Shown piece after piece: positions 219-60,454 of a stretch of 64,000 nucleotides of DNA (its first letter is position 1; each line of letters begins with the position of its first letter). Source of the stretch: Desulfurococcaceae archaeon (lineage in GTDB: Archaea > Thermoproteota > Thermoprotei_A > Sulfolobales > Desulfurococcaceae). Location: assembly GCA_028275705.1 (NCBI GenBank), contig JAPWUD010000001.1, positions 1 through 64,000 of the forward strand. The letters are read 5' to 3'. A model generated the notes under the pieces. It did no database searches, was not told where the DNA came from, and saw nothing but the letters and a program-made list of their open reading frames with translations. Made by a program: the position numbers and the translations under genes.

Positions 219-626
219 CTACCGTTTCTCGGCAGATGGTAATTCATAGCCATCCATGTTTACTGTTTTTAGGGCTCCTCACCATCTGCCTCTCAACGGC
301 TTTATCTCCCCGACCACTCTACGGGAGTTGTTCACCCCTAGTCGCCTAGGGGACATCCACTCCCCTCAAGTAATCAGGGTTCACGGATTGTTCATCAACC
401 TCAAGGCTTCATCGGCTTCGAATTTCTACCACTATTACTGTATTTGAAGATGGTTTAAAAACCTATTGTAATAAATGTAAACCCAGTATACTCTTCAATA
501 GATACATTCGGAGTAGCACTAACACTAGGACTAGATAAACACGTTGCATCAGCACACCTCATAGCATTAAGAGGTCTAAGACATCAATGGAAATAAGTAT
601 TACAAATGATCATGAAAACTCAAGCC
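219..626. mobile_element. Decayed repeat element, copy A
   Basis: This stretch shares a block of about 140 nt (281-420) with 17679-17820, at roughly 93-95% identity with two one-base indels, plus shared arms and right end. It starts with an imperfect inverted repeat: 221-240 pairs with 281-299 around a loop of about 40 nt. It then has a perfect 7-bp hairpin, cccctag-tcgc-ctagggg, at 336-353. The right part keeps a TnpB-like protein tail (477-596). The indels shift the reading frame between copies, so the conserved block is probably RNA or DNA structure rather than protein. I read it as the remnant of an IS200/IS605-type element. The rest of the gene-free stretch (627-752) holds only an AT-rich upstream region for the next gene. 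Confidence 0.6.
477..596 (+). pseudogene. TnpB-like transposase C-terminal fragment
   Basis: A 39-codon open frame starts VNPVYSSIDTFGVALTLGLD, continues KHVASAHLIALRGLRHQ and ends in WK plus TAA. Archaeal TnpB/OrfB-like proteins often end with a comparable pattern: VNPxYxS, then G, then H-x-A-A with I and R residues. There is no start codon or upstream coding part, so this is a relic. Copy B keeps only the last eleven codons (HLTALKDLRHQ). The family assignment rests on pattern memory. Confidence 0.4.
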
Positions 627-17614: not shown

Positions 17615-17938
17615 CTACCGTTTCTCGGTAGATGGTGGTTCATTGCCATTTATATTTTCATTGTTTTCATGGCTCCCCACCATCTGCCTCTCAACGGCTT
17701 TTATCTCCCCGACCACTCTACGGGAGTTGTTCACTCCTAGTCGCCTAGGGGATCATCCACTCCCCTCGAGTAATCGGGGTTCATGGATTGTTCATCAACC
17801 TCAAGGCCTCATCGGCTTCGGGATTCCGCAACTACTACAATATCTCAGTGTGGTTTATAAACACACCTCACAGCCCTGAAAGACCTTAGACACCAATAAA
17901 TGTAAACACCACAAGCGATTATGAAAAACGAAGCAGCC
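17615..17938. mobile_element. Decayed repeat element, copy B
   Basis: Second copy of the element at 219-626, in the same orientation. Shared parts are the hairpin arms (17617-17636 and 17679-17697), the block 17679-17820 and the right end with gattatgaaaaacgaagc. Relative to copy A it lacks about 90 nt of the TnpB-like part and keeps only HLTALKDLRHQ plus TAA (17864-17899). It fills the whole gap between the AbrB-like gene and the 3' end of glyS. No target-site duplication is evident. Confidence 0.6.
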
Positions 17939-59684: not shown

Positions 59685-60329
59685 GTGGCATCGCGCCCAG
59701 TAGTGAAAGATAAGTGGAAGATGAAGAAGTGGTATGATGTAGTGGCTCCAGAGTCTTTCGGAGGTATTAGTCTAGGTACTATACCCTCAGACGATCCAGA
59801 TAAACTCATTGGGAGAGTCCTAGAGACTACTATGTATGATTTAACAGGGGACATTACACAAGTTCATGTAAAACTATACTTCCAAATAGTCAAGGTGGAA
59901 GGGGATAAGGCATATACTAGGTTTAAAGGACATGAGCTAGCAAGAGACTACATGAAGAGCTTAGTGAGGAGGAAGAGTAGTAAAATACAGGGTATTTACA
60001 ATATTCAGACGAAGGATGGATACATTCTAAGAATAACTGTTGTCGCCTTGACAAGTTATAGGTGTAAGACAAGCCAGAAGAAAGCTATTAGTAGAATTAT
60101 GAGAGAATACGTATATCAAAAAGCATCAGAGTTGAACTTCAATGACCTCGTACAGGAAATACTAAAAGGAACTATTTCAAACGAGATAGCGGAGAGAGCG
60201 AGAAAGATCTATCCTATAAGGAGAGTGGAAGTCTACAAAACAAAACTACTTATGATACCATCACCTGAAGGACCTAAACCTGCAGTCGTAATTTCTCCAA
60301 TACAATTAAAGAAGTCTATTGTAAAGTAG
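59685..60329 (+). CDS. rps3ae: Ribosomal protein eS1 (S3ae)
   Basis: About 214 residues. Starts ASRPVVKDKWKMKKWYDVV, then PESFGGISLGTIPSDDPD, VHVKLYFQIVKVEGDKAYTR and RRVEVYKTKLLMIPSPEG. GTG 59685 gives the family start and follows GAGGTG; the longer frame to GTG 59658 is less likely. A TATA-like gtttttaaagg lies about 75 nt upstream. Confidence 0.95.
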   Translation: MASRPVVKDKWKMKKWYDVVAPESFGGISLGTIPSDDPDKLIGRVLETTMYDLTGDITQVHVKLYFQIVKVEGDKAYTRFKGHELARDYMKSLVRRKSSKIQGIYNIQTKDGYILRITVVALTSYRCKTSQKKAISRIMREYVYQKASELNFNDLVQEILKGTISNEIAERARKIYPIRRVEVYKTKLLMIPSPEGPKPAVVISPIQLKKSIVK

Positions 60330-60340
60330 CACTAGTACTT

Positions 60341-60384
60341 TTTACAACTGTAAGCCTCGCCTTTCAAGGCGGGGAGGAGGTCAG
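60341..60384 (+). repeat. Palindromic IS200/IS605-type end, copy 2
   Basis: tttacaactgtaagcctcgc, then ctttcaaggcggggagg, then aggtcag: the same element as 25358-25314 on the minus strand, with about five differences including one indel. The stem CCTCGCCTT/AAGGCGGGG is kept. It lies 12 nt after the S3ae stop, in the same orientation to the preceding gene as copy 1. Confidence 0.5.
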
Positions 60385-60454
60385 TCCTCTCACGTAGAAA
60401 TAATTAATTGCTTTGTATTTAATAAAATTGTATTTGATGAAAATGGTGGATGCA

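Follow-up and report, generated by a model that had tools for sequence, protein, structure and literature searches.

An internally deleted element with IS607-like ends is probably an RNA-only member of a TnpB-like family with a divergent guide-RNA gene

In canonical TnpB systems (obligate mobile element-guided activity, OMEGA), tnpB and its guide RNA share one strand, and the RNA overlaps the gene at its 3' end. The closest described relatives of the element reported here are IS607 TnpB elements with a right-end element RNA (reRNA), such as ISXfa1 and ISFba1 (PMC10711439, PMC11061315). IS607 elements cross over at GG (PMC10711439), and their TnpBs use target-adjacent motifs (TAMs) such as AGGAG and GAGGG (PMC11061315). 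The stretch analyzed in this study, referred to as the window, comprises the first 64,000 nucleotides of contig JAPWUD010000001.1 (C18:1-64000) of a Desulfurococcaceae archaeon, whose genome (G000; 1.47 Mb) is assembled in 42 contigs. Close to its start, the window harbors copy A of a family of mobile elements that shares with the ISXfa1/ISFba1 type GG at both ends, the lack of a target duplication, a G- or AG-rich site before the guide, a TnpB fold (as predicted) and an RNA running to the right end. The family differs from that type in having no tnpA, in the inversion of tnpB relative to the RNA, which is encoded by a separate, divergent gene, in the lack of a zinc ribbon, in the replacement of the RuvC-III Asp by His and in a small DNA-binding partner gene. 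With a probability of about 77%, copy A is interpreted as an RNA-only, internally deleted and trans-mobilized member of an IS607-ended TnpB family featuring a divergent guide-RNA gene.

The original prediction, made from the window's letters alone, had described the segment 219-626 as a two-copy repeat of about 140 nt. A search of the own genome with this segment matched eight further places besides itself; the repeat as such was confirmed and turned out to be longer, whereas its limitation to two copies did not hold. The second site in the window (17,615-17,862) was 86% identical to copy A across 244 nt (E = 3e-76), and matches at C15:28916 and C17:1114 each covered the full 244 nt. The others were three sequences of a sister type (contigs C27, C20 and C16), C4:38402 and a 42-nt end at C34. 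Moreover, a covariance model of the RNA (R1), built from 12 RNAs, detected eight strong copies and one weak copy in this genome. In total, the family comprises eight related insertions, of which seven are internally deleted and one, on contig C4 (~1.5 kb), is intact. Aligned in one orientation, all copies have common ends, namely GGGCTGTTTC... and ...GAGAAACGG. The two window copies contain the following features:

222-628 (407 bp): copy A, internally deleted mobile element with the RNA-sense ends GTGGCTTGAG...GAGAAACGG, delimited by alignment of all copies
222-430, minus strand: gene for a structured RNA, a candidate guide RNA (omegaRNA), based on R1; its 3' end is the element end, its 5' end (430) is an estimate from the TATA-like box
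222-299, minus strand: 3'-terminal hairpin of the RNA at the element end, based on folds and covariation in relatives
308-379, minus strand: central long stem in which 308-319 pairs with 368-379, based on folds and pair counts
452-462, minus strand: TATA-like box, GTTTTTAAACC in RNA sense, based on sequence and conservation between copies
477-596, plus strand: 39 codons and the stop left over from the divergent tnpB-like gene, a 3' remnant recognized by protein identity
597-628: conserved other end of the element (left end, LE, in RNA sense), a short spacer after the tnpB stop, common to the copies
17618-17938 (321 bp): copy B, second window element, based on the copy alignment and an empty site in the related genome G006
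17618-17813, minus strand: RNA gene of copy B in its model extent (R1, 154 bits; copy B is a model member)

Copy A was matched by R1 at 222-413 of the minus strand (151 bits, E = 3e-43), a score obtained partly by construction since copy A belongs to the model. The tail encoded by 477-596 (VNPVYSSIDTFGVALTLGLDKHVASAHLIALRGLRHQWK, followed by the stop) had already been called TnpB-like; it shares 78% identity with the C-terminus of a TnpB-like protein from the same-genus genome G003 and 73% identity over 22 amino acids with the protein of the intact element (C4:37071). A plasmid search with the 39 residues gave no match. In copy A, most of the protein gene is thus deleted, and what remains is the minus-strand RNA together with the plus-strand 3' remnant of tnpB. 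The internal deletion of copy B differs from that of copy A and recurs in copies C (C15) and D (C17), while copies E and F have another deletion in common; therefore, the deleted forms themselves moved and multiplied. The sister-type copies on C27, C20 and C16 (L005-L007) represent an RNA subtype with intact tnpB-bearing parents in genomes G072 (L035) and G110 (L043); such a parent was not found in G000.

The intact element on C4 (locus L081) spans 1506 bp and has the same ends as the deleted copies. A 355-residue TnpB-like frame is oriented toward one end and the RNA toward the other, on opposite strands and head to head, and the RNA terminates at this other end of the element. In a first set of homologous loci, structured sequence likewise preceded tnpB on the opposite strand nearly everywhere that enough upstream DNA was available. 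Relatives of the protein at E <= 1e-10 occur in 70 of the 229 genomes of the class, and a scan of GTDB representatives yielded 159 relatives. The best 80 of these are all archaeal and originate from Desulfurococcales, Sulfolobales (Metallosphaera), Caldivirga, Vulcanisaeta and Thermofilaceae, as well as from metagenome-assembled genomes labelled Bathyarchaeota, Geoarchaeota, Nezhaarchaeota, Odinarchaeota, Baldrarchaeota, Archaeoglobales and Thermococci; among the viral contigs searched, no relative was detected. Applied to these best 80 of 159 loci at E <= 0.1, R1 matched upstream of the tnpB-like gene and on the opposite strand in 56 (best E = 3e-48), with a median of 213 nt between RNA and first matched tnpB codon. 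About eight of the 56 duplicate model members; the others are independent and include Caldivirga (L212, 101.6 bits), Bathyarchaeota (L220, 114 bits) and Baldrarchaeota (L251, 59 bits). None of the 16 canonical tnpB loci of G000 was matched. The position of protein and RNA on opposite strands might also be explained by chance neighbourhood or by nested insertion of two unrelated elements, but recurrence of the layout at 56 of 80 loci in many archaeal lineages refutes this explanation, which is left with practically no weight. A minus-strand tnpB frame ending in PLRGRW and stopping over its guide RNA, as originally proposed, was also dismissed: the tnpB remnant is encoded on the plus strand, opposite to the minus-strand RNA, and the head-to-head layout is confirmed by intact relatives. 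A literature search, which did not cover the large TnpB census, found no description of a divergent guide-RNA gene for TnpB.

Mobility of the family is evident from genome G006, a close relative (93-96% identical) with empty sites for copies B, D, F, G and H (ACAAGGG^TAGTT, CTAGGGA^TAATAAGG, CAGAGG^TGATT, GAGGGG^CTCTGG and CAGAGG^TTATTC). Since these five insertions are absent from so similar a genome, they look recent, which disagrees with the domesticated RNA considered in the original prediction. At the five empty sites, a GG dinucleotide flanks the elements at both ends and a target duplication is absent. Moreover, the AGAGG, AAGGG and AGGGG preceding the guide fit the AG-rich TAMs of IS607 TnpBs. 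An IS607 element on contig C23, encoding a serine recombinase and TnpB, has nearly the same ends (GGGCTATTTCG...GACAAACGG versus GGGCTGTTTCG...GAGAAACGG). No serine recombinase is encoded by the intact element on C4; three are present elsewhere in G000. A TAM of the IS605 style was not apparent, as no conserved motif except GG was found left of LE, and the two Y1 transposase genes of G000 are located away from the elements. Judged by their ends, the G-rich target and the lack of a target duplication, the elements resemble the IS607 type more than the IS200/IS605 group first suggested as their origin. In Sulfolobales, the copies (upstream regions of L103-L110) end in ACTC or CCCC instead of ACGG, and the crossover dinucleotide or the transposase may differ there. 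The RNA-only copy G (L007, G000:C16:29665-29893) interrupts a gene for a MATE-family transporter that is uninterrupted in G006 (L156).

Both structural features recognized earlier were recovered in the RNA: the long inverted repeat is formed by both arms of 222-299, and CCCCTAG/CTAGGGG (335-352), the 7-bp hairpin, sits on top of the central stem, whose inner stem is GGGAGT/ACTCCC. In copy A, the 3' hairpin has the lower stem CCGTT/AACGG and an internal loop GAGA/GAGA. Within 21 terminal hairpins, selected since they pair and hence compared with controls, 93.7% of cells were paired after removal of loops, versus 62.5% +/- 2.7 in shuffles. Changes on both sides were seen for 7 of 9 pairs. Lower-stem variants include ACCGT/ACGGT, GGAGT/ACTCT, AGGGG/CCCCT and AGCGT/ACGCT. 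In a directional control, 19 of 49 loci reached a score of 7 or more, compared to 0-2 of 49 on the other strand or downstream. The central stem covaries, too. Between lower and upper stem, relatives contain an invariant ATGA/GA loop, mostly GAUGA/GA, presumably the kink-turn consensus; in the window copies, GAGA/GAGA replaces the kink-turn-type loop seen in many relatives. With further copies and covariation both found, whose absence had been named as speaking against it, the earlier view of a decayed, mobile, TnpB-related element with a conserved structured RNA was borne out.

At Sulfolobales loci, the divergent RNA coincides with full-score matches (52-92 bits) to Rfam family Sso133 (RF02814), a named Sulfolobus small RNA family (sRNA133); at L107, for example, R1 covers 1083-1238 and Sso133 covers 1134-1207, the same place. 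This coincidence suggests that Sso133 represents the RNA of the present TnpB-like system, the RNA family described here being much wider and including the 3' hairpin. In the Rfam search of the window and the copies, only Sso133 was returned, below threshold (copy B, 17705-17792, 28.2 bits versus a gathering score of 44). The TATA-like box of copy A lies approximately 25-30 bp ahead of the presumed RNA start, and the distance between TATA box and RNA is a fixed one. The repeat could instead be a mere transposon end that forms DNA hairpins for a transposase and is not transcribed, as its position at the element end and the use of DNA hairpins by HUH transposases would allow. This is improbable, given that both main stems covary, including G-U pairs, that the loop is of kink-turn type, that the TATA distance is fixed, and that the position is shared with the Sulfolobus RNA family Sso133.

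In most loci, a frame of 47-55 codons precedes or overlaps tnpB and encodes a MazE/AbrB-like (PF04014, 36 bits in one case) or ribbon-helix-helix-like protein. The TATA box is located between this frame and the RNA and often falls within an inverted repeat such as CTACAGAAAATCTTATAAGTATTTCTGTAG; in 18 of 48 loci, inverted repeats at the TATA box exceeded 95% of shuffles. Such a small protein in an operon with a nuclease-fold protein, together with operator-like repeats around the TATA box, would also suit a toxin-antitoxin-like module in which a TnpB-like nuclease toxin is checked by the MazE/AbrB-like protein, the RNA or both. However, the RNA 3' end is the element border and the RNA covaries up to it, as a guide scaffold would, and RNA-only copies multiplied without the protein genes, so that there is little reason to favor this module.

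The 355-residue protein had no Pfam match and stayed below every curated NCBIfam cut-off (guided_TnpB, 27.9 of 100 bits), and a single-sequence search against the PDB gave nothing of note. Among its homologues, 22 and 25 of 27 matched the TnpB-related NCBIfam models TIGR01765 and TIGR01766, respectively (E <= 0.01). The AlphaFold2 model, based on 27 sequences, reached a predicted local distance difference test (pLDDT) value of 88.2 and a predicted template modelling score (pTM) of 0.80. Best Foldseek matches in the PDB were Cas12f, Cas12k and ISFba1 TnpB (E = 2e-10 to 9e-7), RuvC also being returned, and profile comparison by hhalign with the canonical TnpBs of G000 yielded E = 1e-17. Accordingly, a Cas12f/TnpB fold with a RuvC domain is predicted for this protein. 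A zinc ribbon (CxxC...CxxC) is present in none of the 27 homologues, and several canonical TnpBs of G000 are likewise devoid of it. Separately, a second TnpB group of G000 (L058-L062 on C15, C30, C42, C1 and C28) has lost the zinc-ribbon cysteines (VNPAKTSKKSPNNRK) and kept the RuvC-III Asp.

Asp208, Glu272, Asp339 and His341 are invariant in the 27 aligned homologues. His341 aligns with the canonical RuvC-III catalytic Asp (DRH versus HRD), and Asp339 is situated two residues earlier. The His at this position in all homologues would agree with an RNA-guided binder that represses without cleavage, tuned by the AbrB-like protein. TldR and Cas12m2 are comparable, being compact TnpB/Cas12-fold proteins with an altered RuvC site, and Cas12m2, with its non-canonical triad, binds and does not cut (PMC10442227). 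Their residue pattern is a different one, and the proteins described here occur in a mobile-element context. Invariance of all four residues suggests selected metal coordination rather than loss, and recent mobility with varied flanks contrasts with one fixed regulatory target; the binder is thus a possible but doubtful alternative. A large TnpB census that appeared in PNAS in 2023 reportedly describes rearranged catalytic sites and exapted TnpBs.

Several observations weigh against interpreting copy A as an IS607-ended, trans-mobilized TnpB-family element. The D-E-D triad of RuvC is incomplete, its third position being H341, and the left junctions are 1-2 nt off the empty sites of G006, which leaves the presumed IS607 crossover with this uncertainty. 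For copy A itself, unlike the five other copies, no empty site was found. Furthermore, an intact tnpB parent of the RNA subtype of copies A-D was not found in G000, the nearest one, in G003, being broken, and copies A-D may therefore be relics. Since triad, zinc ribbon and RNA position all deviate, the element is related to TnpB/IS607 but no strict member.

Under the IS607-ended TnpB reading, intact members encode a putative effector of about 355 residues with a rearranged RuvC-III motif, usually following the ~50-residue AbrB/MazE-like or ribbon-helix-helix protein. A shared promoter region would drive transcription of the operon in one direction and of the RNA in the other, with the inverted repeat around the TATA box as the probable operator of the small protein. 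Transcription of the RNA would continue beyond the border of the element and thereby include flanking DNA as the guide. The effector-RNA complex would then recognize the empty site by a G-rich TAM and the guide, may cleave it (homing) and would help the element to persist or spread. Movement itself would depend on a serine recombinase of the IS607 type provided in trans, and the deleted copies would have retained what is needed in cis only, i.e., both ends and the RNA.

The Rfam family HgcC (RF00062) is likewise TnpB-associated. It lies on the same strand as tnpB and differs in sequence from the divergent RNA. An HgcC match in L100 was considered as a link to the divergent RNA and proved to be a separate, canonical TnpB-associated RNA. 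G000 contains 20 HgcC matches, several of them at canonical tnpB 3' ends, and in the window an HgcC-like RNA (60311-60397, plus strand; 28.7 of 50 bits, E = 0.0016) is flanked by a ribosomal-protein-like frame and a sugar-nucleotidyltransferase gene. Based on the location at tnpB 3' ends, HgcC appears to be a canonical TnpB omegaRNA and the window sequence an orphan. The weak R1 match at G000:C40:77981-78076 (L298, 24.4 bits), which adjoins an HgcC match at 78095, is possibly a further degraded copy.

As a tentative extension, these loci might represent an archaea-wide, previously unrecognized RNA-guided system, in which a TnpB descendant that lacks the zinc ribbon and has an Asp-Glu-His site is combined with an AbrB-controlled bidirectional promoter and a separate kink-turn guide RNA (L7Ae-type), the RNA-only copies serving as dispersed trans guides to a shared effector, comparable to a dispersed CRISPR array. 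In the TnpB systems found in the literature, the guide RNA is tied to the tnpB 3' end, which prevents separate evolution of protein and RNA. The RNA gene described here stands alone, is divergent and has its own putative promoter, as in CRISPR and tracrRNA loci. Such a layout corresponds to a naturally occurring intermediate, with guides borne on transposons on one side and separate guide genes on the other. The orphan Sulfolobus RNA family Sso133 thereby gains a likely role. Moreover, the effector is compact, presumably heat-stable and unusual in its active site, and the RNA-only mobile elements provide testable guides.
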